Below are positions 4,842 through 47,978 of a stretch of DNA of 51,344 nt, one piece after another. The stretch's first letter is position 1. Each line of letters opens with the position of its first letter. The stretch is from Bacteroidia bacterium (GTDB lineage Bacteria; Bacteroidota; Bacteroidia; Bacteroidales; Azobacteroidaceae). The notes beneath the pieces were generated by a model. That model saw only the letters and a list, made by a program, of their open reading frames with translations. It made no database searches and was not told where the DNA came from. The stretch spans positions 1-51,344 of the forward strand of contig BNYG01000015.1 of NCBI GenBank assembly GCA_026000155.1, read 5' to 3'. The position numbers and the translations under genes were made by a program.

Positions 4842-4877
4842 ATTTTTTTACTTTTTGACCTTTTTATCTTTTTACCT

Positions 4878-4990
4878 GTCATTGCGGGCTTGACCCGCAA
4901 TCCCATGATGTCCGTTAAACACCTTTTCCTGTTTTTAATCGAATAATGATTAACGATTGGCAGGGGATTGCGGGTCAAGCCCGCAATGAC
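4878..4990. repeat. 113-bp inverted-repeat element (family A, two arms)
   Basis: The outer arms 4878-4904 and about 4964-4990 are inverted copies of a 27-base sequence starting GTCATTGCGGGCTTGACCCG. Each arm is itself palindromic (GCGGG-CTTGA-CCCGC). The centre is AT-rich. No ORF is present, so it resembles a small non-autonomous element. It sits in the gap between mutA and mutB. Confidence 0.85.
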
Positions 4991-5002
4991 AGTTTTTTTT
5001 AA

Positions 5003-22514: not shown

Positions 22515-23669
22515 AAAGGAATCCAGCAATCGGCTCCATTTCTTTTTGATCACTTCCGAACTATAGTTATTTTTTAATTTTTGATAAGCATTCTTCCCCA
22601 TTTCGAGACATAGATCCGGGTTGTTCCAAAGAAAAGTAATTTTTTGCATCAAATCATCTTTGTCGTTTGGCGTGAAAAGCAAACCGGTTTTATCATTATC
22701 AATAATTTCCGGAAATCCCGCATGAGCCGGTCCGATAGCCGGTTTCCCGTAGGAAGCTGCTTCCAAAATAGTCATCGGAAATCCTTCGTAGCAGCGGCTG
22801 GTATTCAATAAAAAGCGGGAATTTTTGTAAAAATCATTCAGTTTATCTATGGAAATATGTCCCAAGAGAATGCAATTATCCGGAACAGGAGTCGTAATGG
22901 GTTCTTCCGCTCGCGGAGAACCGGCAAAAACATACTTGATAGAAGGAGTTTTAGCTGCCGTTTCCAAAGCCAAATCAATGCCTTTTTCCCGGCTTAACCG
23001 GCCGGATATCGCCACATAATCGCCCAAATGTAAGGGCGTATGATGATACGCCCCTACATTTTCTATAAAATTGGGCATATAGATCATCTTCTCCGCATCG
23101 AATCCGGCTTGAATCAATTTCTGAATTTGAAATTGGGTAATACAAGCATAAAAATCCACATTCTTTTTGTAGGCTTTTGTGATGCGAGCATACCAATTTC
23201 GTCCGGCATAACCGATACTTCTTGGCAATGAATGTTCGCAATTATATTTTATACATGACCATTCATTCCCATTTTCCAAACAAAGTTCACAAGGCCGGGA
23301 ATTTCGCATAAATAAGCCGGTAGGACACATTAAACGGAAATTATGGACAGTCATGATAACCGGCACTCCGGCTTGATGTATGGGCTTCAAAATCGCCGGG
23401 GAAATATACGGATACAAATTATGGACGATCACTACATCCGGCCGATTGGTTTTCAATATTTGTTTGATGTCGCGTACCGAACCCGGAGAATAAAAAGCGG
23501 TGAAAAAACCTTTCATATCTCCCCAAAATGTTCCGCGCAAGCCTTCGGTTGTTTTCCGGTACACTTCTACTATATGCCCCATTTCCTTGAAAAGGGCGAT
23601 TTGCCGATCGACGACGGCTTCTTCGCCGGTATGGATGCCGTAGTTGTTATGTATGAGGAGGATTTTCAT
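22497..23669 (-). CDS. glycosyltransferase family 4, with in-frame palindrome
   Basis: A 390-residue GT-B glycosyltransferase (GT4). The N-terminal domain begins MKILLIHNNYGIHTGEEAVV. A cysteine-rich insert MCPTGLFM...CELC...CIKYNC sits at about 120-150. The C-terminal domain has ISGRLSREKGIDLAL and the nucleotide-sugar motif EGFPMTILEAASYGKPAIG. Residues 204-215 (VGAYHHTPLHLG) are encoded by a 34-bp imperfect palindrome at 23027-23060. The 3' end overlaps the convergent polyferredoxin gene by 18 bases, and the ATG directly abuts the TAG of the module gene upstream. It is the last gene of the polysaccharide locus. The sugar is unknown. Confidence 0.9.
   Translation of the reverse strand: MKILLIHNNYGIHTGEEAVVDRQIALFKEMGHIVEVYRKTTEGLRGTFWGDMKGFFTAFYSPGSVRDIKQILKTNRPDVVIVHNLYPYISPAILKPIHQAGVPVIMTVHNFRLMCPTGLFMRNSRPCELCLENGNEWSCIKYNCEHSLPRSIGYAGRNWYARITKAYKKNVDFYACITQFQIQKLIQAGFDAEKMIYMPNFIENVGAYHHTPLHLGDYVAISGRLSREKGIDLALETAAKTPSIKYVFAGSPRAEEPITTPVPDNCILLGHISIDKLNDFYKNSRFLLNTSRCYEGFPMTILEAASYGKPAIGPAHAGFPEIIDNDKTGLLFTPNDKDDLMQKITFLWNNPDLCLEMGKNAYQKLKNNYSSEVIKKKWSRLLDSFLEPKL
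23027..23060. repeat. 34-bp imperfect palindrome inside the GT4 gene (family B)
   Basis: The arms AATGTAAGGGCGTAT and ATACGCCCCTACATT are complementary apart from one G/A position and surround a 4-base centre. The core GGGCGTAT/ATACGCCC recurs at 46599-46617 in the oxidoreductase gene. Confidence 0.75.
23602..23668. repeat. direct repeat, copy A (5' end of the GT4 gene)
   Basis: These 67 bases match 24767-24830 except for a 3-base gap. They are the first 22 codons of the intact GT4 gene. The two copies flank the two-gene module 23670-24586. Confidence 0.9.
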
Positions 23670-24323
23670 CTACCGTTCAAAAGTATTCGTAAAAAACGCA
23701 ACGATTTCATCACATCCGATTGATATTGTAACAATAGAAGAAATGACTACTGATGCTATCCAAACCAAAACAGTGACTGTCCATTTGACCTTTTTTCTAT
23801 ACTTCGCCCAATTCAATTTGGACATATTGGAATCTATTAATTCTTCTAAATCAGAATAATTATTATATGCTGCTTGATACAAATCAAAACTTTTTTGTTT
23901 ATCCTTGCTTTCTAATTTTTTTGCTTCTCTAATCATTTTAATGGCATCAACTTCCAATTTACGAAATTTGGGAGCAAATTCTCCATTATCAATCAATGTA
24001 ATATCTATTTTATCGGTATAATCTTTATCAAATTTCTTAATATAGTCATAGAACCATACATCAAGATATTTATAACAATCAAATGTTATACGTAAAACAT
24101 GACTTTCTGCTTTTTTGAGTTCTTCTGCAATCTGCGAATCAATCATATTGGATGTAAAACACCTGGCTATATGATCATTCAACGCTCTAATCTCGTTAAA
24201 CAAAGAATCAGGAAACTGTTGACAGTGAGCTTCAATATCAGCAATTAAAGGCTTAATAGTTTCATTATATTGGGTATAGATGGTCGATAGTTCTGATTGA
24301 AATTTTTCTACATTCATATTCAA
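23670..24323 (-). CDS. unknown protein with C-terminal membrane anchor (accessory module)
   Basis: A 217-residue protein that I do not recognise. It is helical and charged through residue about 175, including IREAKKLESKDKQKSFDLYQ. One membrane segment follows near the C-terminus (WTVTVLVWIASVVISSIVTI), then a short tail. The expected topology is a cytoplasmic domain tethered to the inner membrane. The start overlaps the stop of the upstream small gene in ATGA, so the two are translated together. The stop directly abuts the downstream GT4 ATG. Flanking direct repeats show that the pair is inserted in the polysaccharide operon. A toxin or defence role is possible but there is no direct evidence. 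Confidence 0.72.
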   Translation of the reverse strand: MNMNVEKFQSELSTIYTQYNETIKPLIADIEAHCQQFPDSLFNEIRALNDHIARCFTSNMIDSQIAEELKKAESHVLRITFDCYKYLDVWFYDYIKKFDKDYTDKIDITLIDNGEFAPKFRKLEVDAIKMIREAKKLESKDKQKSFDLYQAAYNNYSDLEELIDSNMSKLNWAKYRKKVKWTVTVLVWIASVVISSIVTISIGCDEIVAFFTNTFER

Positions 24324-24586
24324 ATTTTACTTAGTTTTCGGTCAATATCCGTTAATTTGAGATACCTTCTCAAAGCAAGAAAGACACCTCCTCTTGCAGG
24401 AAGTCTTCTATCTCTCACTCCATATTCCATCTGTATTGTTTTGTTTATTTTTTTTTCAATCAATTTGTCAATGCTTTCTGCATCCAATTTTTCAATTTCC
24501 GAATAGGGAATACCCGTTGATCGTTCAATCGAACGTTTTGTTTTAGGATTTAGTGAAATATCTATCATATTATATAAATTATTCAT
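24320..24586 (-). CDS. small basic protein of unknown function (accessory module)
   Basis: About 88 residues from ATG 24584-24586 (MNNLYNMID); a GTG at 24628 would give 102. I do not recognise the family. It is rich in Lys and Arg, with IERSTGIPYSEIEKLDAES resembling a short helix-turn-helix-like segment, and ends with a basic helix (RRYLKLTDIDRKLSKI). Being first in the pair and downstream of an inverted-repeat promoter, it could be an autoregulatory DNA-binding partner of the membrane-anchored protein. That is inference from arrangement only. It overlaps the next gene by four bases. Confidence 0.62.
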   Translation of the reverse strand: MNNLYNMIDISLNPKTKRSIERSTGIPYSEIEKLDAESIDKLIEKKINKTIQMEYGVRDRRLPARGGVFLALRRYLKLTDIDRKLSKI

Positions 24587-24701
24587 CGAATTATTATTTA
24601 TTAAGCGAAATACACTTTTGATAATCACGTTTCAAAAGCATACCGCATTCTTCCTTCTGTTGTAATATAATCGTTTTGAGCATAATTGCATCTTTACTGC
24701 A

Positions 24702-24709
24702 CAAAGATA
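24702..24709 (-). promoter_or_regulatory. candidate -7 element of the two-gene module
   Basis: The minus strand reads TATCTTTG, a full match to TAnnTTTG, about 116 bases upstream of ATG 24586. The expected -33 region falls in the spacer of the inverted repeat 24716-24746. Confidence 0.45.
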
Positions 24710-24715
24710 CTGTTT

Positions 24716-24746
24716 TTTATGCAATACGGTATATTTTTTGCATAAA
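24716..24746. promoter_or_regulatory. inverted-repeat candidate operator
   Basis: TTTATGCAA (24716-24724) and TTGCATAAA (24738-24746) are perfect 9-base inverted arms with a 13-base spacer. They straddle the position expected for the -33 element of the module promoter, as expected for a repressor site. Confidence 0.5.
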
Positions 24747-24766
24747 AATTATAAAAAAGAACCATC

Positions 24767-24830
24767 TGCCGATCGACGACTTCTTCGCCGGTATGGATGC
24801 CGTAGTTGTTATGTATGAGGAGGATTTTCA
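24767..24830. repeat. direct repeat, copy B
   Basis: Matches copy A (23602-23668) at all aligned bases apart from a 3-base deletion. It contains the first 21 codons of the GT4 remnant. Confidence 0.9.
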
Positions 24831-25772
24831 CGGGACAAAATTGTATTTTTTCAAATCTTCGGCTAATTTTCTTGAAAATAATTCAGCTCCTTTTTTATTC
24901 ATGTGTTGAGAATTATAAAAATACTGTTTATCATAACTAATTGAATCCGGGGTATAATCTAAAAAGAGCACATCGGTTTCTTTTGCCAGATTACTCCAAA
25001 AGTCAATTACGTCTTGCCTGTTAAGTACCATTTGCTGATATTCTATATATTGTGGTGCGAATACCAAAGCTATTTTTATACTATCCTGCTCAGCTTTTGA
25101 GATATATTCTCTCATCTCAGAAATAATTTCCTCATTCATTTCTATAATAACACCATCCGGGTATTTTTTCTTATATCTAACAAAACTATCGTCCCATTCA
25201 CTTTCTGAACCATAATATCCTTTATATTTTATGGTATCAAAAACTGCACGATTCGTCAAGACTTCTGTCCAGCCTGAAAATATAACTTTTTGCTGCCAAT
25301 ATTTTGTTATCGGATTATGATAATCCAACCAATGCAAATCATCATATTGTTTCGTAAGATTGGATACTACTGTATCTGTAAGATAGGGGAAATACGAAGC
25401 TAAATCGTATAAACATGATTTTTTTCCAAACAAGTCATCTACTTGATGAATGATATATTCTGGTTTTCCATTACGTTCCTTATAGATATTATACAAGCCG
25501 ATCTGTCCGGTATAATCTGTTGCCGACTGACCAATATTGTATGAATTAACATTTAAAACAGAATCTATAATGGCCGGAGAAAATTGTACTTCTGCCCTGG
25601 AACTACCTACGATTACTAAATCGGATAGAATTTTTCCCGCATAGATGTCATTAATTTCAAATCCTGTACCATGTAACTTTTTCATTCCTTTTGCTCCAAT
25701 AGAGGTGATCAGGAACAATATAAGTGTCAAAAGAACGCTAATAATCAAAAAATTAACAATAAATCGTTTCAT
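24828..25772 (-). CDS. SGNH/DltD-like partner of the MBOAT acyltransferase
   Basis: A 314-residue protein with an N-terminal membrane anchor (FLIISVLLTLILFLITSIGA) and an extracytoplasmic SGNH-hydrolase-like domain. Block I is VIVGSSRAEVQFS (Ser near 57) and the C-terminal catalytic block is FYNSQHMNKKGAELFS, supplying His. Proteins of this type beside MBOAT genes (AlgJ/X, DltD, PatB analogues) complete O-acyl transfer onto exported glycans. The gene lies 7 bases after the MBOAT gene on the same strand. Its stop overlaps the GTG of a GT4 remnant. The role follows mainly from context and is fairly convincing. Confidence 0.8.
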   Translation of the reverse strand: MKRFIVNFLIISVLLTLILFLITSIGAKGMKKLHGTGFEINDIYAGKILSDLVIVGSSRAEVQFSPAIIDSVLNVNSYNIGQSATDYTGQIGLYNIYKERNGKPEYIIHQVDDLFGKKSCLYDLASYFPYLTDTVVSNLTKQYDDLHWLDYHNPITKYWQQKVIFSGWTEVLTNRAVFDTIKYKGYYGSESEWDDSFVRYKKKYPDGVIIEMNEEIISEMREYISKAEQDSIKIALVFAPQYIEYQQMVLNRQDVIDFWSNLAKETDVLFLDYTPDSISYDKQYFYNSQHMNKKGAELFSRKLAEDLKKYNFVP

Positions 25773-34876: not shown

Positions 34877-36158
34877 ATAATTTATGTAATGATTGAATAT
34901 AGTGGGAAAATAGAGGGATTTCACAATTTTTTGAAAATACTGCAATTTCATCCTTGTTTTCCAGTATGTATTGAATACTTTTTTGAAGTTCTGTCCTGTT
35001 ATTCGGTTCAATGAGCCATCCGTTTTTTTTCGGAATAATTTGCATTTCAGGTCCCCCGCATTTAGTTGCCAATACCGGCCTTCCCATGGAAATCGATTCT
35101 GCAATAGCTATTCCAAACACTTCTAAAACAATAGCCGGATGAATCATTACATGATAATCCTTTATCAAGGATTCTATTGCTGAATTAGGCAATCGTTCAT
35201 GAAAAACAACAGGTAATTTTTTTGCCGTTCTTTTTAACTTACCATAATAGCGCTGTTCTTTCCCTCTTTTTTCTGCATCACCTATAATATGTAATTCATA
35301 TTGATCTTGAGGTATAGGTTCCAATGCTTTCAATAGTATGTGCAATCCTTTGGCATACGAAATTCTTCCCAAATAATAAAATTTCACTTTACCATCCAAA
35401 GCCAATAAAGGCAGTCTGTTTCTTTTCTTTACACCATGAGGAATTACAACCACATTCCCTCTTATTCCGTTTTTTTCTAAAATCTCCTTTAATTTGATAT
35501 TAGCGGAAATTATAGCGGCCGATTGTTTAAATTTTTCAATCTTTTTCAAAGAATCCTCTATTATGCCGGTAATTAAAAGAAGTGGGGTAAGCAATAACAT
35601 AAATGGGCGTTTTTGCACCCATTGATAAGCCTTTAGACGCTGATTAACTGAAAATAACCGTAAAAAGTTGTACATAAAATCTTTTCCCGGTAAATCCCGG
35701 CAGCAGCACCGAAGACAATTTTTGTGACTCACCGTAGTGGGACAAATTTCATCATTATAATATAAAAAACCATTTCCTCCTCCTCTCGGACATATAAATC
35801 CACCAATATGTATGGTATAAACAACAGGAATATTCAATTGATTGGCAGCTTCCAATTCATATCCTTCGATCATATTAGAATGAATAACTGCCGGATTTAG
35901 TACAAGTAATGTATTTTTTATTTCATCCACTATTTTCTCAGACCGGGAAGCGTACGAATCAGGTAATTTTAGAATAAAATAGTCAGTTCCTTTATAGTTT
36001 TCAGTTATAACCAACGGAGTAGATGTATCTTTATCGCATAGCACAGTCAGTATAACCATATTGAGTTTCGATTCAATAAGTCCATTGACAACTTCAAGAG
36101 TAAAAAAGTGTTCTCCTGGAATAGTTATGCCGTATGTAGTGATAAATAATAATTTCAT
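34863..36158 (-). CDS. glycosyltransferase family 4 with cysteine-rich insert
   Basis: A 431-residue GT-B transferase starting MKLLFITTYGITIPGEHFFT. At about 125-155 it has a cysteine cluster (ICPRGGGNGF...EICPTTVSHKNCLRCCC) shared in outline with the GT4 genes at 22497 and 40036. The C-terminal domain shows YYLGRISYAKGLHILLKALE and VLEVFGIAIAESISMGRPVL (EX7E). It overlaps its neighbours by 4 and 14 bases. Confidence 0.9.
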   Translation of the reverse strand: MKLLFITTYGITIPGEHFFTLEVVNGLIESKLNMVILTVLCDKDTSTPLVITENYKGTDYFILKLPDSYASRSEKIVDEIKNTLLVLNPAVIHSNMIEGYELEAANQLNIPVVYTIHIGGFICPRGGGNGFLYYNDEICPTTVSHKNCLRCCCRDLPGKDFMYNFLRLFSVNQRLKAYQWVQKRPFMLLLTPLLLITGIIEDSLKKIEKFKQSAAIISANIKLKEILEKNGIRGNVVVIPHGVKKRNRLPLLALDGKVKFYYLGRISYAKGLHILLKALEPIPQDQYELHIIGDAEKRGKEQRYYGKLKRTAKKLPVVFHERLPNSAIESLIKDYHVMIHPAIVLEVFGIAIAESISMGRPVLATKCGGPEMQIIPKKNGWLIEPNNRTELQKSIQYILENKDEIAVFSKNCEIPLFSHYIQSLHKLYEEI

Positions 36159-37129
36159 TTCCGCTTATCTATTAAACTAAAAAACTGTATAACCCGAGGA
36201 TTTTTTACAATAATTGCAGCTAATTTCCATCCGACAAAAATCTTTAAAAATTTAAATAATCTACCATTAGCAGGTATAACTAATTTTGTTTTCCATTTAT
36301 CTAACATGGTATTGATTTGAGGAAATAAAGATTTATTGTCCGGATATAACAAATAAGCAAACCAACCTAATTGCCGGGCACATGCATAACGGGTTCGTTC
36401 CGTATTCTCATAATGAAGAATTATCTGTGCAATTTTATCAATAACCCTTAATTGTGATTTTTGAGTTTCTATGGTATTAGTTGAACTTATTCCTGAATGG
36501 GTTAACCTCCAAACAGCATAGATATCCGGAGTAAATAATACTTTACCGGCATGAGCAATGACACGAGAGAAAAATTCACCATCCTGATTTTTTTGTATAG
36601 ATTCATCCCAGCCGGCAGTAGATAAAAACAAATCCCGATGCACCAAATAACAATGAGGAGTATTATGATTATCAGATGTCCACATATCAATTAAAAGTTC
36701 TATGGGCTGTAAATAATCTTGATCAATAACACGTTTTTGATATTTTCCGATTTTTCCGTCTCGCATCAACCTTAAATTACAAAAGGATAAAGTATTATCC
36801 TTTTCAGAAACTAATTGTTCTACTTGTTTTTCTATTTTGTCTAAAGAACAAAAATCATCTGCATCTAAAAACTGCACATAATCTCCATGCGATTTTTCAA
36901 AGGCATAATTCCGAGCGGCACAGGCACCTTTTTTAGGATTTCGATACAAGAAAACACCGTCGGAAAGATATTTTTCCGCTATTTGATAGGAATCATCGGT
37001 TGAACCATCATCTACAATAATAATCTCAATGTTCTTGTAGGTTTGACCCAAACAATTTTGAATTGTTGCTTCTATATAATTTTGTGCATTATATAGTGGA
37101 ATTAATATAGAAACTAAAGGTAAATTCAT
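36155..37129 (-). CDS. glycosyltransferase family 2
   Basis: A 324-residue GT-A enzyme. Motifs are VSILIPLYNAQNYIEATIQN, IIIVDDGSTDDSYQIAE and VQFLDADDFCSLDKI (about 87-101). The acceptor-side DE is in GWDESIQKNQDGEFFSRVIA. It lies between the flippase and a GT4 gene, overlapping each by four bases. Confidence 0.92.
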   Translation of the reverse strand: MNLPLVSILIPLYNAQNYIEATIQNCLGQTYKNIEIIIVDDGSTDDSYQIAEKYLSDGVFLYRNPKKGACAARNYAFEKSHGDYVQFLDADDFCSLDKIEKQVEQLVSEKDNTLSFCNLRLMRDGKIGKYQKRVIDQDYLQPIELLIDMWTSDNHNTPHCYLVHRDLFLSTAGWDESIQKNQDGEFFSRVIAHAGKVLFTPDIYAVWRLTHSGISSTNTIETQKSQLRVIDKIAQIILHYENTERTRYACARQLGWFAYLLYPDNKSLFPQINTMLDKWKTKLVIPANGRLFKFLKIFVGWKLAAIIVKNPRVIQFFSLIDKRK

Positions 37130-38661
37130 TTTTTCAACTTTACAATCCTTATTATTAGACCTTTTACACTATTTTTATTAATCAACAACATTCCTCCAAA
37201 ATATAGACAAGAAAAAAGAGAGGTAACTAGAAAAGCATACATTATCCATGTTTTATAATTGTAATATGGATTGATAGATATAAAATTTAAGATACAGGAA
37301 CTACATATCCAAACTATGACTAACATCATTAGATTTTTAAATATTTGTTTCCAATATTTTCGGACAGATAACTGAAACCCTTGTTTGAATAAAAAATAAG
37401 GTTTCCATATATTAATAATTATTATCGAACTTGTGATGTCTCCTAATAATACGCCAAACAATCCCCATATGCTACCGCAAAAGATAGCTACTCCAATAGT
37501 CAAAAATAATGTTACAATAGGTGCCCATATATCATGAAATAATCCATATCCATTGATAAATTGGTCATTGGTCCCTCGCGTCAAACTTACAAATATATTA
37601 CATAAGATAATTATGAAAACCTTATTATCAAGAATATATTCATTTCCAAGCCATAATTTAACAAATGGTTCTATCAAATTATAGAGAGAAAATATTAGTA
37701 CTCCTGCTACAAAAAAACGCAAAGTAATAAATTCCCAATATATTTGAAGTGTTTTTTCTTTATTGTTTTCTGCAATAAGACTACCAACGCCAGCCGTAGT
37801 ACTTCCAAGAACCTGATTTACAAATCCTGTTACTTTATCAATAATAACCATATAATTTCCATAATAAGCAACTATTTTTAATGATGCAAACGCATATATT
37901 AAAAAGGGAAGTATTTGATTACGTCCAGTACTCGCTAACAGATGAACAAACATTTGTTTTGCTTTCGTTATGATAATTTTATTATCTTGATATTTATTTT
38001 TACCCTCACTTATATTAGATTTCAACCAAGGATACACCTGATTAACCTTCCAATTCAGAATAATCGAATAAATAATTCCAAAAATCAATTCTATCGCTAC
38101 CCATAGATAATAATTACCTGTATAATAGGCGATTGTCATTTGAATAAGCGTTTTGAGAATGGTAGCCGATTGAAAATAACCCGTCACTACATAATTCCGC
38201 TGATCGGCGCCCAACAAAGTCTGTTTGTAATTGGCAAAATACCCAATCAGCGAAGAAGTCAAAAAAGAAAAGTAAGCAAAATAAATAATTCCATAAGAAA
38301 ATCCGGTGGAGGGAAAGATAAGCGGCAAAAAACAAGCCAATAGGCAGCCTGCTCCTAATATTATCAATCCTATCCAGCGGTATAAATAGCCAAATACGGA
38401 AATGATTTCGCTAATCTTTGTTTCGTCCTTTTCAAAAAGCGGTTTATAAAGGACATAGCCGATAGCGCCACCTATCCCCAATTCCGCCAGATTCAAGAAG
38501 CCTAACAGATTATATAAAGTTCCGGTCAATCCAAGAAAATCAGCACCTAAGGCATCTAAAAAGATTTTCCGAGAGAAAAAAGAAAGAACCAGCGAGAGAA
38601 AATAAAATACTAAATTCACTCGCGCATTGAGTAATGATTTTTTTACCCGGGATTCTGTCAT
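37126..38661 (-). CDS. Wzx-type polysaccharide flippase
   Basis: A 511-residue MATE/MOP-superfamily membrane protein with about 12-14 TM segments. It starts MTESRVKKSLLNARVNLVFY and has the conserved early motif FLDALGADFLGLTGTLYNLL, as in Bacteroides capsule flippases. It moves undecaprenyl-linked repeat units to the periplasmic face, upstream of Wzy polymerisation. Its first 31 bases recur at 44332-44362, where a 17-codon remnant of the same start overlaps the AlbA_2 gene stop. This suggests that the flippase once sat directly after that gene. Confidence 0.92.
   Translation of the reverse strand: MTESRVKKSLLNARVNLVFYFLSLVLSFFSRKIFLDALGADFLGLTGTLYNLLGFLNLAELGIGGAIGYVLYKPLFEKDETKISEIISVFGYLYRWIGLIILGAGCLLACFLPLIFPSTGFSYGIIYFAYFSFLTSSLIGYFANYKQTLLGADQRNYVVTGYFQSATILKTLIQMTIAYYTGNYYLWVAIELIFGIIYSIILNWKVNQVYPWLKSNISEGKNKYQDNKIIITKAKQMFVHLLASTGRNQILPFLIYAFASLKIVAYYGNYMVIIDKVTGFVNQVLGSTTAGVGSLIAENNKEKTLQIYWEFITLRFFVAGVLIFSLYNLIEPFVKLWLGNEYILDNKVFIIILCNIFVSLTRGTNDQFINGYGLFHDIWAPIVTLFLTIGVAIFCGSIWGLFGVLLGDITSSIIIINIWKPYFLFKQGFQLSVRKYWKQIFKNLMMLVIVWICSSCILNFISINPYYNYKTWIMYAFLVTSLFSCLYFGGMLLINKNSVKGLIIRIVKLKK
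38631..38661. repeat. 31-bp direct repeat, copy 1 (flippase start)
   Basis: The first 31 bases of the flippase gene, identical at 30 of 31 positions to 44332-44362. The repeats bound about 5.7 kb that contains the ABC export module. Confidence 0.9.
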
Positions 38662-38736
38662 TTAAATTGTTGTTCTTCTTTTCGCAGCCAAAATACTAAT
38701 TATTTAAAATTTCTCTTATTTCTACTGAATTAATTA

Positions 38737-39909
38737 TTAATAATTCAACCCAAACGCCCACAGAGGAATAACATTTTGATAACCATATTCAATATCATCT
38801 TTCACGATATAAGCATTTTTCAAACCTTCAATCTGTTTTTGCGTTTTGCTTTTTCCGCCCACTTCAAAAGTCAGATTGTTGATATTGAAATCGCCTTTGT
38901 CGGAACGATAAACTTTATTATTTACCTTCATTTGATTGAAGAAAAATGTTTCGCGCAGATTGCCGATGTTTGGTTGCTCTTCCGCCAATGCAAATATCAA
39001 ATTGGTATTATCCAAATATACTTTATCAATCTTGCCGAGTTGACCGATACCTTCTCCCATATCGCGCAGTTGCATCAGCAAACCCGCCTGTTCCATAAAA
39101 TAGCAATAATCATCCATGCTGTTTCGGCTCGAGTCGAGCATCGCGGCAATTTTGGTAAAATTGGGTTTGAAAGGAACGCTTTTTGAAACAATTTTCAACA
39201 ATTTACCTAATTTTTTCCCTGTCGAAACATTCAAATTGGCATAAATCGGAATATCACTTTCCAATGTCTGAACAATCATTTGATTTAACCGAAACAGAAA
39301 CATCGTGTCATCAATGCCAAAAGGATAATAACCACGCCGTAGATAATCCTTAAACAACGGCAACGGATGACGAACAGAAAATTCATCTGTTTTATGCGCC
39401 AAAATATCCGTCAAACTGTATTTTTCAATCGCAATATGATGAAAGAAAAACAGATACTCGCGAAACGAAAGTCCCTGAATATAAAACATTAACGCACGGC
39501 GACTGAGGTCGGCACTACCTTTGAGAATATCTAAAATGGACGAGCCTGTAAAAACGACTTTTATCTCCGGATAATAATCATAAATAGATTTCAACGACTG
39601 CGACCAACCGGAATATTTATGTATCTCATCAATAAAAAGATATTTGCCTCTGTTTTTTGAAAAAGCATCGGCAAGGTCGAGCAACGAATGTTCAGCAAAA
39701 TAAATATCCTCTGCCGACACATACAAGGTTTCGTTTACATCCAGATTTTCTTTGATATATTGCAAAACCATAGTTGTTTTTCCCACCCCACGAGGTCCTA
39801 CTATGCCAACCATTCTGTCGTTCCAAGCAATTTCGGAATACATATATCGCTTAAAATCAAGTGCTGTGAGCGACAATAAATCCTTAAATTTTTTTGTAAG
39901 TGATTCCAT
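38737..39909 (-). CDS. AAA_14/DUF4143-type ATPase
   Basis: About 390 residues from ATG 39909 (MESLTKKFKDLLSLTALDF). A longer frame would begin inside an upstream repeat. The Walker A motif is GPRGVGKTT (38-46), Walker B KYLFIDEIHKY, and sensor 1 KVVFTGSSILDI. The C-terminal part contains the restriction-endonuclease-like fold usual for this family (VYRSDKGDFNINNLTFEVGG). Such ATPases are common accessory genes in Bacteroidetes with no settled function. It has its own repeat-rich upstream region and no overlap with neighbours, unlike the surrounding operon, so it looks like an insertion. Confidence 0.88.
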   Translation of the reverse strand: MESLTKKFKDLLSLTALDFKRYMYSEIAWNDRMVGIVGPRGVGKTTMVLQYIKENLDVNETLYVSAEDIYFAEHSLLDLADAFSKNRGKYLFIDEIHKYSGWSQSLKSIYDYYPEIKVVFTGSSILDILKGSADLSRRALMFYIQGLSFREYLFFFHHIAIEKYSLTDILAHKTDEFSVRHPLPLFKDYLRRGYYPFGIDDTMFLFRLNQMIVQTLESDIPIYANLNVSTGKKLGKLLKIVSKSVPFKPNFTKIAAMLDSSRNSMDDYCYFMEQAGLLMQLRDMGEGIGQLGKIDKVYLDNTNLIFALAEEQPNIGNLRETFFFNQMKVNNKVYRSDKGDFNINNLTFEVGGKSKTQKQIEGLKNAYIVKDDIEYGYQNVIPLWAFGLNY

Positions 39910-39919
39910 ACAAAATATT

Positions 39920-39949
39920 TTTTGTAAAGATATAAATATTTTTACAAAA
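39920..39949. promoter_or_regulatory. inverted repeat upstream of the AAA_14 gene
   Basis: TTTTGTAAA and TTTACAAAA are perfect 9-base inverted arms with a 12-base AT spacer, just upstream of ATG 39909. This would suit an operator or an attenuating hairpin. Confidence 0.45.
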
Positions 39950-40006
39950 ACGCACTTCTGATTGTGCATTTTTATTTAAAAAACGCACTTCTAATTGTGC
40001 ATTTTT
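39950..40006. repeat. two tandem 24-bp repeats
   Basis: The units at 39950-39973 and 39983-40006 begin ACGCACTTCT and end ATTGTGCATTTTT, differ at one base, and are spaced 33 bases apart. They lie between the truncated GT4 gene and the AAA_14 gene. Confidence 0.75.
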
Positions 40007-40035
40007 TGCAATATATTGATTTGAAATGAATTAAA

Positions 40036-40746
40036 TCAAATTATCGGTATTCCATGCGGCACAATTTTAATTTTTTCTTCCGGAAATCCATTCAATATCA
40101 TGCTATCGGCAATCGCATACGAGGGTGCAATCATCGTATCGGTATTTTTAATAATTGACTGCCATTCTTTTTTCTTTTGCTCAATGTATAAATCCGAACT
40201 CAAAATGGGAGTAACAAAATAAATAAATGGAAGTTTGGACAAAAACTTTCCGGTTTTCAAACGAAACGAAACAGGTAAATTTTTCAGTAAGGGATACCAA
40301 AATAATCCGGTTTTCGTATTTCGCAACACGCAACACAAACAATGCCCGTGACTAACCGGCACATGACAAATGGTATCCTGACAATTCATCAACGTTCCTG
40401 CAGGACAAACAATTCCGCCATGATGAGCCGTAACAATAATCGGAATTTCTAATTTTTTGCCGATTGCTGCAATCATAGCTTTTTCCGCATGAATATGGAT
40501 AATATCCGGCGAAATCTGTTGAATGAGTTTTTTTAGCGCTTCTTTATCTTTTTGATGTATTTCATACAGATTGATCCCTCTATAATTTTGTTTTTGAATA
40601 GGAACATCTGATTTTTTATTAACAAATGAAAAAACGGTAATATTCAAACCTTGGTTGATCATTTCATCTACCAGATTTTTGACATAGACTTGTCCTCCAC
40701 CGTAAGTGGAAAAGAAATCACCGTTTGCTATTTGAAGAATTTTCAT
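40036..40746 (-). pseudogene. glycosyltransferase family 4, C-terminally truncated
   Basis: A 236-residue open frame covering only the N-terminal half of a GT4 enzyme. It has MKILQIANGDFFSTYGGGQV, a cysteine cluster (VCPAGTLMNCQDTICHV...HCLCC) and IKIVPHGIPII, where it stops. Family members are about 370-430 residues and continue after IPHG into the donor-binding domain with the EX7E motif, which is missing here. The next sequence is the repeat region and AAA_14 gene, so an insertion or deletion probably removed the 3' half. It is unlikely to be catalytically active. Confidence 0.8.
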
Positions 40747-41519
40747 TATTTATATTTCTTCCGTAATTTCGTAATCCAGGAGATTAATTCTTTCATCCTT
40801 GATAACGTCCTCGAATTTTTATACAAGAAGTAATCTTTATAATCCTCTATAAAACATGGAAAATATTTATATAAAACTCTTGTTCGCTCTTCAAGCATTC
40901 TATCGACATCTATCGAAGAAATTCCATTCGTTTGAATATCACTTACTTGTGTGTTCAGAAATGAATAGGAACTATGATTATTAACCACAGATAATAAAAA
41001 AAACAACCAATCAGAAACTATTCGATAGTTTTCATCATATAATCCTACTCTTTCAAATAAATTTCTTTTTATAAATGTACATGGATGAAGAAGAGAAGCA
41101 ATATAAAAATCGGAAAAACGCAAAGATTCTCCTGGTTCTTTTTTAATAATTCCTCGTATGTTATTGTGTTTCTGATGCAATCGACCTATTATCAAATCCG
41201 TATTATTGTCCTGTCTGAAAACAATTTCCAAAACATTATTCTTAATTAGCCAATCTCCACTATTCAAAAACAAACAATATTCTCCTTTCGCTTGAAGAAT
41301 GCCTTTATTCATCGCATTATAAATACCTTTGTCCGGTTCACTTATCCAATAAGTGATTCTATCGGCATACGCTTCAATAATATCCACACTACCATCGGTG
41401 GAAGCACCATCAATCACAATATACTCAAAATCTGTGAATGTTTGAGATATAGCACTTTCAATGGTTTTTCGTAAACCATCTTGATTGTTGAGATTAATTG
41501 TTATAATTGATAATTTCAT
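40746..41519 (-). CDS. glycosyltransferase family 2 (WcaA-like)
   Basis: A 257-residue GT-A enzyme. Motifs are SIITINLNNQDGLRKTIESA, YIVIDGASTDGSVDII, ISEPDKGIYNAMNKGI (typical of the colanic-acid WcaA/WcaE type) and CLFLNSGDWLI in the DXD position. The acceptor-side element is RIVSDWLFFLLSVV. It overlaps the acetyltransferase by 26 bases, and its stop shares one base with the truncated GT4 start (TAATG). Confidence 0.92.
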   Translation of the reverse strand: MKLSIITINLNNQDGLRKTIESAISQTFTDFEYIVIDGASTDGSVDIIEAYADRITYWISEPDKGIYNAMNKGILQAKGEYCLFLNSGDWLIKNNVLEIVFRQDNNTDLIIGRLHQKHNNIRGIIKKEPGESLRFSDFYIASLLHPCTFIKRNLFERVGLYDENYRIVSDWLFFLLSVVNNHSSYSFLNTQVSDIQTNGISSIDVDRMLEERTRVLYKYFPCFIEDYKDYFLYKNSRTLSRMKELISWITKLRKKYK

Positions 41520-42192
41520 CCGTTAGAAATATATTAATAAATCTGTCAATATCAAAAAAATATTTTTCGACAGAAGGTAGTTGGTCTTCACTAAAATTCC
41601 ACCATTTAATTTTCTGCATTGCCTTAATTTGGTTGTCCGACATCCGATATTTAATAATTTTTATCGGACAACCTACTGCAATTGCATAAGGTGGAATATT
41701 TTTAGAGACTACCGCTCCTGCTCCTATAATGGCTCCATCACCAATGGATACACCATCTAAAATTATAACATTCGCTCCTATAAAAACATCATTTCCAATC
41801 CCTATTTCTTTTCTTTCTTCCACTTTATCTACTTTGCTCAAAGTTACCCCATTTTGCCTGTGTGTTGAATAAAACATGGGAGAGGTTGATAATCCGTTTA
41901 CCGGATGTATTCCCCATCCACATAAAAAATTAGGTCCTATTGAACAAAATTTACCAATTTTTGTATATGAGATATTCGAATTTTTAGCAACATAAGTATA
42001 ATCTCCTATTGTAGAATATAAAATTTTATAAGCTGGAAATAAATTAACATTTTTCCCTATCTTTGACTCCGAACAATGCGACCTGATTTCACCTGTGTTT
42101 ACATCCTTTTCTGTCAAAAAACTCGCCTCAGGAAATAATCGAAGAAAAAAATATTTAAAAATGCTTCTAATCCATTTTTTCATCCGTTTCAT
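41494..42192 (-). CDS. hexapeptide-repeat (LbH) O-acetyltransferase
   Basis: A 232-residue acyltransferase with left-handed beta-helix repeats (IGDYTYVAKNSNISYTKIGK, and later IGNDVFIGANVIILDGVSIG). It has the catalytic-type His in GIHPVNG and the loop TSPMFYSTHRQNG of the CatB/VAT-like xenobiotic and sugar acetyltransferases. It probably acetylates a nucleotide sugar or a lipid-linked sugar in the cytoplasm using acetyl-CoA. ATG 42183 (MKKWIRS) is an alternative start. It overlaps Wzt upstream and GT2 downstream. Confidence 0.88.
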   Translation of the reverse strand: MKRMKKWIRSIFKYFFLRLFPEASFLTEKDVNTGEIRSHCSESKIGKNVNLFPAYKILYSTIGDYTYVAKNSNISYTKIGKFCSIGPNFLCGWGIHPVNGLSTSPMFYSTHRQNGVTLSKVDKVEERKEIGIGNDVFIGANVIILDGVSIGDGAIIGAGAVVSKNIPPYAIAVGCPIKIIKYRMSDNQIKAMQKIKWWNFSEDQLPSVEKYFFDIDRFINIFLTDEIINYNN

Positions 42193-43429
42193 TCCAAACT
42201 AAATTAACATTAATAAATCCTAAATCAGCATTCTTATATAGTGAATGGATACTTCCGGTATCCTCTATCTCAAAATAGATATCTTCCGGAATTTTATCTA
42301 AAAAACAAATATTTGGAATATGAAGAACCGGCCTAAGATAATAACCTCCTCCCAATAATAAATGCGCAGGAACTTGAACCACTATATCATTTATTTTGTT
42401 GTGCAAAACTTTATGTGATGAAAAAAGAGGTCTTTTTTGAATGTCAAAAATAGTAAAACTTAAAACAGTATCTTGTGGAATATTCCTTTTATGATTTAGC
42501 TCAAAACAAATATTAAAGGGTTTATCATAAGGAAAAACTTTACTCGGTTTCTTGTCTATCGAATTTCTAAAATATATATTTTTGAAGTATAAATCCTTAT
42601 TTGAGAAATGACATTCATAAGAACTTTCTTTTGCACTATTTGAAATATAGGTATTAATAGCATCTTTTATTAGTCCGGAATATACTAATCTTCCTTTCTC
42701 TAATATAATTCCTGTATCACATAGCGTTGCCATTGATCCCATATTATGACTCACAAACAACACAGTCCTCCCATCCCCTTGTGACACATCCTGCATCTTC
42801 CCAATCGCCTTTTTCTGAAACTCTGCATCTCCCACAGCCAGCACTTCATCCACCACCAGAATCTCCGGTTCCAAATGCGCCGCAATAGAAAAACCCAACC
42901 GGACTGTCATCCCAGACGAATACCGTTTTACAGGAGTATCCACATAGCGGGCTACTCCTGCAAACTCTACAATTTCATCCAATTTGCTGTCTATCTCTTT
43001 TCTGGTCATTCCCATAATCGAACCATTCATATAGATATTCTCCCGACCGGTCGATTCCGGATGAAAACCGGTTCCCACTTCTAAAAGCGAGGCAATACGT
43101 CCTTGCGCTTTAATGATTCCGGTAGTTGGAGTAGTTACGCGCGACAATATTTTAAGCAAGGTGGATTTACCTGCGCCGTTTTTTCCGATAATGCCTAAAA
43201 CTTCTCCTTTTTTGACTTCAAAATTAATATCCCGAAGCGCCCAGACATATTCACTTTCTCCTTTGGTCGAACGGTCATTTGTTTCTCCTATTCGTAAATA
43301 AGGATCTTCTTTCCGCAACACGCTCGTTTGCCACCAACGGTTCAAATCATGGCTCAAGGTCTTGGTTGACACCAACCCCAAGCGGTATTGCTTGCTGATA
43401 TTTTCAAATTTGATTGCTATGTCATCCAT
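42167..43429 (-). CDS. ABC polysaccharide exporter, ATPase (Wzt)
   Basis: A 420-residue ATP-binding subunit. Walker A is GKNGAGKST (82-90), the signature YSSGM is at 170-174 and Walker B is ILVVDEVLAVGD (190-201). Residues about 260-420 form an extra C-terminal domain, rich in beta strands, like the carbohydrate-recognition domain of Wzt proteins that read the modified end of the exported glycan. It follows Wzm by 12 bases. The neighbouring acetyltransferase could supply a terminal mark, though that is inference. Confidence 0.94.
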   Translation of the reverse strand: MDDIAIKFENISKQYRLGLVSTKTLSHDLNRWWQTSVLRKEDPYLRIGETNDRSTKGESEYVWALRDINFEVKKGEVLGIIGKNGAGKSTLLKILSRVTTPTTGIIKAQGRIASLLEVGTGFHPESTGRENIYMNGSIMGMTRKEIDSKLDEIVEFAGVARYVDTPVKRYSSGMTVRLGFSIAAHLEPEILVVDEVLAVGDAEFQKKAIGKMQDVSQGDGRTVLFVSHNMGSMATLCDTGIILEKGRLVYSGLIKDAINTYISNSAKESSYECHFSNKDLYFKNIYFRNSIDKKPSKVFPYDKPFNICFELNHKRNIPQDTVLSFTIFDIQKRPLFSSHKVLHNKINDIVVQVPAHLLLGGGYYLRPVLHIPNICFLDKIPEDIYFEIEDTGSIHSLYKNADLGFINVNLVWNETDEKMD

Positions 43430-43441
43430 CTTATATTGCCA

Positions 43442-44290
43442 TTATACCGTATCCATAAAACTACGTTGCACTTTATTAAACACAACGATTCCTACTCCTA
43501 AAACTACACACATAAAAATAAAACTGTAGCCCAATTGCCACCAATCGAAAGTGCCGGTACCCAAGGTCGCATACCGGAATGTTTCAACGATAGAAGTTAC
43601 AGGATTGAGCGCTGCAATCCATTGTTTCTTAGGCGACATCACACTTAATGGATAAATGATAGGTGTTGCATACATCCACAATTGTACTATAAATGTGAAT
43701 AAAATACTTAAATCCCTGTATTTGGTAGTTAAGGAGGAGATGATAATTCCAAATCCCAACGATAAGCCGGCCAACATAATTACTAAAACAGGCAGTAATA
43801 ACAGATAGATATTGGGAGCGACAGGTACTCCGGCAACAATATAGTATATATAGACCGCAACAAACAAAATAAGCTGAATGCCAAAGGTATATAGACTGGA
43901 ACTAACCGTACTGACCGGCATGATGAGCCGGGGAAAATAGACTTTACCAAAAATGTTTTCGTTATCTTTGAAAGTAGAAGAAGTTTTTAAGAGACAGGTA
44001 GAAAAATAATTCCATAAGCAGATACCGGAAAGATAAAACAAAGGTTGCGGTAAACCATCCGTCGAAATGCCGGCAATTCCTCCAAATACCACCATATACA
44101 TTATGGTCGTTAAAGCCGGGTTAACAAAAAACCATAAAGGTCCCAATATGGTTTGTTTGTATTGAGTCACAATGTCCCGTTTTACAAACATCCGCCAAAG
44201 GTCTTTGTAGCGAATTAATTCTTTGAAGTCGATATCAAACAAACCGGTGGTAGGTTTGATAATCGTCGTCCATTTTCCTGATTCTGCCAT
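43442..44290 (-). CDS. ABC polysaccharide exporter, permease (Wzm)
   Basis: A 282-residue ABC-2 permease with six TM segments. The N-terminal amphipathic part (DLWRMFVKRDIVTQYKQTIL) and the motif GPLWFFVNPALTTIMYMVVF are typical of Wzm/KpsM-like exporters. It pairs with the Wzt ATPase immediately downstream to export a completed, lipid-linked polysaccharide across the inner membrane. Between it and the upstream AlbA_2 gene lies a 17-codon flippase remnant. Confidence 0.94.
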   Translation of the reverse strand: MAESGKWTTIIKPTTGLFDIDFKELIRYKDLWRMFVKRDIVTQYKQTILGPLWFFVNPALTTIMYMVVFGGIAGISTDGLPQPLFYLSGICLWNYFSTCLLKTSSTFKDNENIFGKVYFPRLIMPVSTVSSSLYTFGIQLILFVAVYIYYIVAGVPVAPNIYLLLLPVLVIMLAGLSLGFGIIISSLTTKYRDLSILFTFIVQLWMYATPIIYPLSVMSPKKQWIAALNPVTSIVETFRYATLGTGTFDWWQLGYSFIFMCVVLGVGIVVFNKVQRSFMDTV

Positions 44291-44308
44291 ATAATCTACG
44301 TTTTTCCT

Positions 44309-44362
44309 TTACAAATCTGTTCCCATCAGGGGTAACGATTTTTTTACCCGGGATTCTGTCAT
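44309..44362 (-). pseudogene. 17-codon 5' remnant of the flippase gene
   Basis: The minus strand from ATG 44362 reads MTESRVKKSLPLMGTDL and stops. The first ten codons equal the start of the flippase at 38661 except for one silent base. The ATG overlaps the AlbA_2 stop as ATGA, the usual arrangement in this operon. Confidence 0.85.
44332..44362. repeat. 31-bp direct repeat, copy 2
   Basis: 30 of 31 bases match 38631-38661. It marks the upstream boundary of the ABC export module. Confidence 0.9.
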
Positions 44363-45726
44363 ACTTTCCAATATCCTCCCTTATCCGATCCAACACGTTC
44401 CAATAAACCTTTTGCTTTGAGCTTGGAAAGGTTGGCTTTTACATTTCTCAAATTAATACCAACAATATCTACTAATTCTTCAGCAGTTATCAATTTATTT
44501 TCCGAAATTTCCTCCAATATTTTCTTTTGATTGTTGGATAGCATTTCTTTTTCAGTGTCTTTTTCAGTGTCTTTTTCAGTGTCTTTTTCAGTGTCTTTTT
44601 TTACGATATTTTCTACTATTGAAAATACCGTTATTCTAAAACCATGCTGAAAATTCTCAAAAACAGGATTGGGAGAACCGTAGTCTTTAAAAAAATTCAT
44701 AATCCGCTTAATGCCGGAACCATACCGTTCGATCCAATCAATTTCTTTAAATACTTTGGCAATGAGTTTGTTACGACAATCCGACACATACTTGCCTTCG
44801 ATTAAATCATTTACAGATATTTCACTCGGCAATTTTCCGGGATTAAAAAACTCAATTCTATTTGGAAAAATTTTTACGGAAGAATTACCGCGATGCGTAT
44901 AATCTCTATGAACAACCATATTCATCACAATTTCACGAAGAGCGTCTAATGGGTAATCCCATCGCTCTTCCCTGGCCGGATTAGCCGTAATAATGTATTC
45001 CTTACTGATATGTTTGCGTATAAACGCCAATACTTCTTCTACTTCGGTTACTAAATCAGTAGATATAGTTAGACCGTCTTTGATGGTGATTTCATTCTGA
45101 AAATGTCCCAACTCAATATCGGAAACAATTGATTCGTTACGCATCAACAGTAAAAATCCCGCATTAGTTAACTGACCCTCTCTGACTAATTCCATTTTCG
45201 TCAAAAACTCGAATACGTCTTTCTCGAGTGGAATTTTCCTGTTTCTATTCGATAATGCAATTAATTGCAACACCTTTTCTTCCGAAATATCCAAAACACT
45301 GTGATTGGGGTCGAAAGAATAGTCCCAACTACTATTAAATGTTTTGAGATGAAGATTGAGTATTTCATTTAGATTTAATAGGTGATTGGCATTCCCTATT
45401 CGCTTATAATATTTCCCTTTCACCGAAACCGGCTTAATCGGAAATTCCGAGATAGAGAAAATCACCACTTTTTTGCTATCAATCGTAAATTCTTCAACAT
45501 CGGGAATTAGAGACGGTTCTGTTTTGCTTTTTATTTCATTTATCCATTGTGGAATAGTTTCTTTATTGAGTGTCACACCAACTATTTTCGCGGTATCACT
45601 CACTCCAAGATAGACAAAGCCACCCTTGCTGTTGGCAAAAGCAACCAGTGTTTCAACCGTATCCGAATTGAACGCAGATTTAAACTCTACGGTTTCAGAT
45701 TCGTTTTTTGGGATTATTTCTTTCAT
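44359..45726 (-). CDS. AlbA_2-domain ATP-binding regulator-like protein with winged helix
   Basis: 455 residues. The N-terminus (about 8-125) is an AlbA_2 domain (ESETVEFKSAFNSDTVETLV, GGFVYLGVSD). The middle matches the GHKL/HATPase_c_4 segment (REIVMNMVVHRDYTHRG, IERYGSGIKRIM). Then comes a KDTE repeat (KDTEKDTEKDTEKDTEKE, about 373-390) and a C-terminal winged helix (LITAEELVDIVGINLRNVKA). The family is usually annotated as transcriptional regulator or DNA-binding; its real function is unsettled. It overlaps the oxidoreductase gene by four bases and the flippase remnant by four, so it is a long-standing member of this operon rather than a loose insertion. Confidence 0.85.
   Translation of the reverse strand: MKEIIPKNESETVEFKSAFNSDTVETLVAFANSKGGFVYLGVSDTAKIVGVTLNKETIPQWINEIKSKTEPSLIPDVEEFTIDSKKVVIFSISEFPIKPVSVKGKYYKRIGNANHLLNLNEILNLHLKTFNSSWDYSFDPNHSVLDISEEKVLQLIALSNRNRKIPLEKDVFEFLTKMELVREGQLTNAGFLLLMRNESIVSDIELGHFQNEITIKDGLTISTDLVTEVEEVLAFIRKHISKEYIITANPAREERWDYPLDALREIVMNMVVHRDYTHRGNSSVKIFPNRIEFFNPGKLPSEISVNDLIEGKYVSDCRNKLIAKVFKEIDWIERYGSGIKRIMNFFKDYGSPNPVFENFQHGFRITVFSIVENIVKKDTEKDTEKDTEKDTEKEMLSNNQKKILEEISENKLITAEELVDIVGINLRNVKANLSKLKAKGLLERVGSDKGGYWKV
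44548..44601. repeat. 12-bp tandem repeat in the AlbA_2 gene
   Basis: About four copies of TTTTTCAGTGTC (minus strand: GACACTGAAAAA) encode the KDTE repeats. The unit is a multiple of three, so copy-number changes alter linker length but not frame. Boundaries are approximate. Confidence 0.85.
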
Positions 45727-47862: not shown

Positions 47863-47880
47863 ATCAATTAGAAATTAGTT

Positions 47881-47968
47881 GTCATTGCGGGCTTGACCCG
47901 CAATCTCCTGAAAAACGTTAAGCACTATTAACGAACATCATGGGATTGCGGGTCAAGCCCGCAATGAC
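47881..47968. repeat. 88-bp inverted-repeat element (family A, two arms)
   Basis: The arms at 47881-47906 and about 47943-47968 match those of the 4878-4990 element. The inner sequence next to the right arm (AACGAACATCATGGG) resembles the inner flank of that element's left arm (CCCATGATGTCCGTT) in reverse. It fills most of the gap between rfbA and rfbB. Confidence 0.85.
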
Positions 47969-47978
47969 AGATTTTACA

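Follow-up and report, generated by a model that had tools for sequence, protein, structure and literature searches.

A fragment of an ABC-type O-antigen operon, probably inserted between short copies of a flippase gene start in a Bacteroidia genome

Insertion with long target duplication was described in Helicobacter pylori by Nobusato et al. 2000 (as cited in PMC1643837 and PMC3031569), and the passages that cite it tie it to restriction-modification genes. By analogy, it is the closest known process to what we describe here: a block of genes lying between two copies of the start of a flippase gene (wzx), in an O-antigen-type operon of a member of the Azobacteroidaceae (Bacteroidia bacterium, GenBank assembly GCA_026000155.1, contig BNYG01000015.1). 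The window that we analyzed is this whole contig, C15, of 51,344 nucleotides (nt), from a draft genome (G000) of 2.85 Mb in 282 contigs. As in the process outlined by those passages, a gene or block without a transposase is found between target repeats far longer than the usual transposon duplications. Such repeats of tens of nt are present at both ends of the block (31 nt) and of a second insert in the same operon (79 columns). The cargo is different: here it comprises AAA_14(-DUF4143), HipA_C, Bro-N, PDDEXK_2 and polysaccharide genes, found in the family of the window and in wzx loci mostly from Bacteroidales, whereas the passages on the known process concern restriction-modification genes.

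Long target duplications of variable length are also produced by the insertion sequences IS1549/IS1634, which make direct repeats of 8-514 bp (PMC2266710). The transposed genes of Arabidopsis (PMC2869330) are alike in that single genes that have moved show an enrichment of direct repeats at their flanks, which in many cases match the target site; they differ in being those of a eukaryote, and the passages that describe them do not mention promoter repeat arrays. Literature searches aimed at this phenomenon returned nothing on point, and the domain names DUF4143 and COG1373 were rare in the searched literature.

The operon is on the minus strand, as revealed by a Pfam search of the open reading frames (ORFs) of the window. 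It starts with rmlC, rmlA, rmlB, GFO_IDH, AlbA_2, wzm, wzt, a hexapeptide-repeat protein, GT2, GT4, AAA_14, and wzx; downstream of wzx are glycosyltransferases, a Wzy_C protein, MBOAT, and then more genes. The names wzx, wzm, wzt, and rml are labels that we presume to apply and that come from no search. The flippase has no Pfam match, and some of its homologs carry the names sugar transporter, lipopolysaccharide biosynthesis protein, or O-antigen export protein. The original prediction, made from the sequence alone, had noticed that ten codons of the flippase recur about 5.7 kb upstream, and this was borne out. Positions 38631-38661 and 44332-44362 form a direct repeat with 30 of 31 positions identical, and the upstream copy opens with an ATG that overlaps the stop codon of AlbA_2 as ATGA. 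These are the only two copies in the window at up to 3 mismatches. None of 100 dinucleotide shuffles gives a match, and the best chance match in 60 simulated windows has at least 9 mismatches. The first 26 nt of the repeat (up to 3 mismatches) occur twice in the whole draft genome, with no third occurrence. We consider that the block is probably a fragment of an ABC-type O-antigen operon that was inserted at the AlbA_2/wzx junction with a 31-nt duplication, as one case of an insertion with long target duplication of the sort enriched around AAA_14 genes. We infer both the direction of this insertion and its single-event nature. The features of the block and its edges are as follows, in the direction of transcription.

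44359..45726, minus strand: AlbA_2 (SLFN_AlbA_2) gene, upstream neighbour of the putative insertion (Pfam)
44332..44362, minus strand: upstream repeat copy, a remnant of the wzx start that overlaps the AlbA_2 stop (repeat comparison)
38662..44331, minus strand: putative inserted block of 5670 nt, exactly between the repeat copies (repeat edges; identity step against genome G023)
44323..44331, minus strand: 9-nt stretch separating the wzx remnant from the GFO_IDH tail (comparison with the tail in genome G042)
44296..44322, minus strand: 3' tail of GFO_IDH in front of wzm (22/27 nt as in G042)
43442..44290, minus strand: Wzm-type ABC-2 membrane protein (Pfam ABC2_membrane; 91.5% nt identity to G023)
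42167..43429, minus strand: Wzt-type ABC ATPase (Pfam; first 797 nt 89% to G023)
41494..42192, minus strand: hexapeptide-repeat (acetyltransferase-like) protein (Pfam)
40746..41519, minus strand: GT2 glycosyltransferase (Pfam)
40036..40746, minus strand: GT4 glycosyltransferase, cut at residue 236 by AAA_14 (Pfam; homolog comparison)
38737..40045, minus strand: AAA_14 unit, with promoter repeats and ORF 38737-39969 (Pfam; comparison with G023)
39939..40004, minus strand: pair of 33-nt direct repeats, ahead of and across the annotated AAA_14 start (repeat comparison)
38662..38736, minus strand: 75-nt stretch between AAA_14 and wzx (similarity search)
38631..38661, minus strand: wzx start, codons 1-10, downstream repeat copy (repeat comparison)
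37126..38661, minus strand: flippase (wzx), downstream neighbour (homolog names)

The repeat might result from chance, from convergent conservation of the N-terminus of wzx, or from an assembly error, given that the contig is a draft. We weighed conservation as a cause because the N-terminus is strongly conserved across the flippase family (at E≤1e-20, 4944 of the 7999 scored candidates are homologs, and the best 120 were aligned or read). Yet the synonymous positions are identical between the two copies, and the shuffles above gave no match. Furthermore, we fetched 60 related wzx loci, mostly from Bacteroidales, and located the wzx start by motif search in 52. None of these 52 has a second copy of it (up to 5/31 mismatches), and a duplicated start is not a habit of flippases. 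As for misassembly, the longest exact stretch common to the two copies is 26 nt, and the k-mers usually employed in assembly are longer than this. Together, these explanations seem to us very improbable.

The comparison with G023, a genome of the same genus, bears on the origin of the block. Its contig C22 carries, in this order, rmlB, GFO_IDH, wzm, an unlabelled 383-aa gene, wzt, glycosyltransferases, a hexapeptide-repeat gene, the first half of GT4, AAA_14, and the second half of GT4. Contig C195 of the same genome has a further AAA_14 end, a second half of GT4, and the Wzy-side genes. Nucleotide identity to these contigs is high for wzm (91.5%), the first 797 nt of wzt (89.0%), the truncated GT4 (92.7%), and AAA_14 (98.3%). 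It is 70.7-81.6% overall for the flanks with full-length matches, with 81-82% for rmlB and GFO_IDH and 71-81% for the Wzy-side genes. The identity step is thus seen for four of the six block genes, in wzt only in part. The flanking genes wzx, 36155-37129, and 27218-28276 have no DNA match in C22 and C195.

The 5' edge of the block points in the same direction. GFO_IDH directly adjoins wzm in genomes G009 and G038, as it precedes wzm in G023. In G042, from another genus of the same family, a copy of the 3' end of GFO_IDH precedes wzm and is in turn preceded by an AAA_14 gene of the same kind. The stretch before wzm in the window matches this G042 tail at 22 of 27 nt, and at 19 of 20 nt when the spacer 44291-44295 is joined to the last 15 nt of the tail. 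A trace of the gene that once lay upstream of the block thus seems to be retained in it, although AlbA_2 with the flippase remnant now occupies that place in the window. These relatives favour the block as the newcomer at the locus.

The same adjacency can be read with the opposite polarity, in two steps. The ABC operon would be resident, and a donor fragment holding AlbA_2 and the first 31 nt of wzx would have come to lie between GFO_IDH and wzm. The route would be homology-facilitated illegitimate recombination, with its anchor in GFO_IDH and a random joint at the other end; the wzx part would have come behind AAA_14 separately. The GFO_IDH-wzm neighbourhoods in G009, G023, and G038 and the tail copy in G042 do make AlbA_2 and the remnant look inserted. 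This type of recombination has also been proposed for the immunity arrays of type VI secretion systems (PMC5361080), where new genes arise beside conserved ones and the displaced old ones are kept. However, such recombination alone gives no reason to expect that an insert has a repeat at each end. Two events are needed, the exact bracketing by a 30/31 repeat is left as a coincidence, and there is no account of why wzm, part of wzt, the truncated GT4, and AAA_14 are closer to G023 than both flanks. We find this history unlikely.

Several observations weigh against an insertion of the block as such. The GT2 gene is not close to G023 (69%). For the hexapeptide gene, the match is limited to 150 nt of C195, at 61% identity, and the final part of wzt finds no counterpart in the DNA of C22. 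Because the GT2 and hexapeptide genes depart in this way, the block is, from these alignments, itself a mosaic. The nine nt after the wzx remnant and the 75 nt after AAA_14 are not accounted for by such an insertion; for the latter, the search for a source found none, with a best non-self match at E=0.041. The locus is known from one contig of a draft genome. The original prediction had proposed that AlbA_2 and the flippase were adjacent before the block split them. The block does look inserted, by the step relative to G023, the GFO_IDH tail, and the bracketing repeat, but a search for an AlbA_2-wzx allele without the block found none: wzx matched its own genome only among 38 genomes of the genus, and no AlbA_2 homolog (E≤1e-8) was found in the 60 wzx loci. 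AlbA_2 beside wzx elsewhere was accordingly rejected (0/60). The results on start codons and on neighbouring paralogues given below count on the same side.

The original prediction also counted AAA_14 among the genes of the block. This gene would already have been within GT4. In G023, AAA_14 interrupts GT4 with 23-nt copies on either side (20/23 identical), and the stop codon of AAA_14 closes the insert. The left GT4/AAA_14 junction of the window is the same as in G023 (95.6% over 2044 nt), and the window lacks the second half of GT4. In 8 of 8 other loci, the GT4 homologs extend 186-213 residues past the break point of the window. Judged by G023, AAA_14 apparently entered the GT4 of the block before the block moved. 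On C22 of G023 there is also a second, truncated AAA_14 behind the GT4 second half (L267 12955-13989), and a copy of the GT4 end follows at the contig end. The protein encoded by 38737-39969 has an AAA_14 domain scoring 106.1 bits, above the Pfam cut-off of 27. Its DUF4143 domain scores 18.6 bits, below the cut-off of 28.1, which is why we file it as AAA_14 only. DUF4143 exceeds the cut-off in the relatives in L093, L256, L235, L243, L250, and L233, and has no match at E≤1e-5 in L259 and L262. The structure predicted for the window protein has a predicted local distance difference test score (pLDDT) of 87.6, and a whole-protein search with it gave matches covering mainly residues 23-332. We do not claim a PD-(D/E)XK nuclease fold for its C-terminal domain, since no listed structural match covers it.

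None of the six ORFs of the block matched a transposase or recombinase family in Pfam, nor an integrase, a check that covers genes carried by the block itself. Reading the ends by eye revealed no terminal inverted repeats and no TGTCAAAGTCAGG-like end at either insert of the window. A long-duplication insertion sequence was therefore rejected as the direct cause. The resident genome does have a DDE element with such a duplication: 789 nt, perfect and direct, around a DDE_Tnp_1 transposase element with TGTCAAAGTCAGG-like ends (G000:C1:131091-131879 / 133563-134351; L034 11091-11879 / 13563-14351). In contrast, the window inserts have neither its transposase nor its TGTCAAAGTCAGG end. We take this element to belong to the IS1634 family, the search itself having given only the DDE domain. 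Another locus, L045 (10455-13129), has a 204-nt duplication (95%) with one TGTCAAAGTCAGG-like end.

The original prediction had counted the block as the second insert of the operon to copy the start of the downstream gene, and the other insert indeed does so. Its repeat pair, 23590-23668 and 24755-24830, is 91% identical over 79 columns. The upstream copy opens with a GTG that overlaps the stop codon of gene 24828-25772 as GTGA, and the insert ends with a TAG directly before the ATG of a GT4 gene. Its two ORFs have no Pfam family, hence no transposase was found there. Its left end holds the beginning of an AAA_14 gene, from the promoter to about codon 30, which ties this insert to the AAA_14 family. 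The intact relative of the fragment is in L235, and in both the homology begins near the insert edge.

24755..24831, minus strand: upstream copy of the GT4 start (repeat comparison; GTGA overlap)
24600..24750, minus strand: left end of the second insert, with promoter and first ~30 codons of an L235-type AAA_14 gene (sequence comparison)
23670..24754, minus strand: second insert, ORFs of 102 and 217 aa (Pfam, repeat edges)
23590..23669, minus strand: start of the GT4 gene 22497-23669, downstream copy (repeat comparison)

To see how such scars are distributed, we surveyed 433,153 nt of the same genome (20 stretches and the window) and the 60 wzx loci. In our reading of the repeat listing, comparable duplications flank insertions in 6 of the 60 wzx loci; other listed repeats were judged by eye to be paralogues, dispersed repeats, or hairpins and were left out (e.g. 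L061, L060, L083, L092, L098/L099). The six loci and one case in the same genome are:

L091: HipA_C gene and small neighbour, 104-nt duplication, before glf
L104: SASA gene, 487-nt duplication
L093: AAA_14-DUF4143 gene, 75-nt duplication
L077: PDDEXK_2 gene, 49-nt duplication
L076: GT8 gene, 94-nt duplication
L100: acyltransferase, 76-nt duplication
Behind G000:C1:93866-96751: Bro-N gene, 41-56-nt duplication from the 3' end of the long gene before it

In L104, a 77-nt copy precedes what appears by eye to be a remnant of a HipA pair as in L091. At the Bro-N site, all 25 testable relatives (at least 400 nt of downstream sequence) lack the second copy. The same bracketing pattern is found at L256, L235, L243, L250, L233, and L211, and the start of the next gene is copied as in the window in L256 (76/77 nt, beginning at the ATG) and L235 (30/30). 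A common mechanism for the two window inserts, which the original prediction had raised, is plausible in view of these six wzx loci and of the 13 bridged AAA_14 genes presented below. Its idea that the repeats are anchored at start codons did not survive as a general rule. Among 1381 ORFs, 31-mers at gene starts recur 15 times, against 7, 24, 10, and 19 at four control positions (matches on contig C2 were dropped before the count), i.e. without excess. The duplications that cover a gene start have their first base 0 to 51 nt ahead of the ATG, and others cover the 3' end of the upstream gene. Three begin at the start codon, namely both window cases and L256, and in the second insert the first base of this codon differs.

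These scars also bear on another history, in which two full flippase genes once flanked the block, e.g. after the integration of a circle by a single crossover in wzx. The upstream copy would then have been deleted save for the bases overlapping the AlbA_2 stop, protected by selection. The remnant does begin at bases whose loss would harm AlbA_2, and the wzx N-terminus is strongly conserved in the family. Elsewhere, though, the repeats are already short (27-104 nt), around small AAA_14, HipA_C, Bro-N, and PDDEXK_2 genes, and some are perfect or nearly so, as in L235 and L256, which is not usual after the decay of long repeats. We regard a lost second flippase as quite unlikely.

Some other repeats of the genome were recorded in this survey. 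Four start copies of a Virulence_RhuM-family gene, with orphan genes (115, 300, and 306 aa) between them, lie at G000:C8:25669-28850 (L044 5669-8850). A regular array with a 35-nt unit and a period of ~66 nt lies at G000:C1:105822-106752 (L033 5822-6752) and presumably resembles a CRISPR array. What we take to be a tRNA-like sequence has a partial second copy at G000:C1:160060-162495 (L036 60-2495), and just behind it is an AAA_14 gene between 47-nt copies of a hairpin sequence.

AAA_14 genes are common in the genus, with matches in all 36 sampled genomes (34 above the Pfam cut-off) and up to 42 per genome. We fetched 120 AAA_14 regions, which are mainly the strongest matches listed and not a random sample, and added three further loci (L267, L268, and L305) and stretches of the resident genome. 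Of the AAA_14 ORFs that could be used, 13 of 136 are bridged by a direct repeat (local score at least 19), compared with 3 of 2025 mismatched flank pairs. Inspection by eye after the count attributed L401 and L386, and probably L261, to similarity between neighbouring paralogues. Other ORFs are bridged in 16 of 792 cases, against 3 of 2373 mismatched flank pairs. Dropping the three paralogue cases leaves 10 of 136, with a weaker contrast to other ORFs (p=0.002) and ~2e-10 against the null. Among the 16 other bridged ORFs are three between RhuM-start copies and three in L381 that overlap one another, along with the Bro-N gene, the CRISPR-like array, and the tRNA-like repeat. The comparison group itself therefore holds mobile features.

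Close copies give an indication of what may move. AAA_14 genes that are ~90-98% identical are found in L259, L260, L262, and L376, and on contig C8 of the resident genome (right end only), and four pairs with L259 have no matching flanking protein segments. On the left, the homology reaches 61-92 nt upstream of the annotated start, or 25 nt in L376, where another start position is annotated. Past the stop codon, it ends within 0-7 nt in six of ten pairs, at 17-36 nt in three, and at ~130 nt in one (L259/L376). Many other AAA_14 pairs, not all, also stop near the stop codon; in L379/L383 the homology runs through both flanks. Near-identical AAA_14 genes in unrelated contexts share, for the most part, only the segment from promoter to stop codon. 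Within 150 nt before the start, a direct repeat (score at least 11) is present in 71 of 140 AAA_14 genes, 30 of 565 other ORFs, and 2 of 140 shuffles, counts that treat related genes as independent and use shuffles keeping base composition only. The offset is 32 or 33 nt in 47 of these 71 promoters, and L388, L362, and L217 provide examples of such arrays. The repeat sequences differ between AAA_14 subfamilies, which suggests that each protein may recognise its own promoter array. It is conceivable, and we propose it tentatively, that AAA_14(-DUF4143) genes are one-gene mobile units, delimited by subfamily-specific promoter repeats on the left and the stop codon on the right. They would insert at gene junctions with target duplications of ~20-100 nt, by their own activity or by host repair, and drag blocks of operons along, reshuffling surface-polysaccharide operons.

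Other repeats of the window are unconnected with the block edges. The last 109 nt of the contig (51236-51344) are a perfect inverted copy of 47403-47511 inside rmlB, which is either a second rmlB-like gene or an effect of the assembly end. A dispersed palindromic repeat with a TCATTGCGGGCTTGACCCGCAAT-like core is found at 4876-4992, 5448-5491, 21801-21852, and 47880-47970, and a 33-nt piece of this TCATTGCGGGCTTGACCCGCAAT-core repeat is also in rmlB-adjacent sequence of G023 (L267 2290-2322). The first large ORF (190-2610) has internal direct repeats at 1335-2212 with ~60-75% identity.

If the block was inserted as we propose, the donor fragment would have run from the 3' tail of GFO_IDH via wzm and wzt to a GT4 already broken by AAA_14. 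Its insertion at the AlbA_2/wzx junction would have duplicated 31 nt, such that AlbA_2 would keep its stop codon and wzx its start. The duplication might have arisen from a staggered break with fill-in or from template switching during repair. In this bacterial group, such insertions are enriched around compact AAA_14(-DUF4143) genes, which seem to move as units of promoter and ORF. One unit would have entered the donor block, and another would have left its first part in the second insert of the operon.

A bracketing repeat of this type would be a readable scar of the gene-by-gene growth of O-antigen and capsule operons, in which a gene or block may enter a tight gene junction and leave both neighbours intact. 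AAA_14(-DUF4143) genes emerge as likely mobile units, whose promoters may hold a testable signal of self-recognition.

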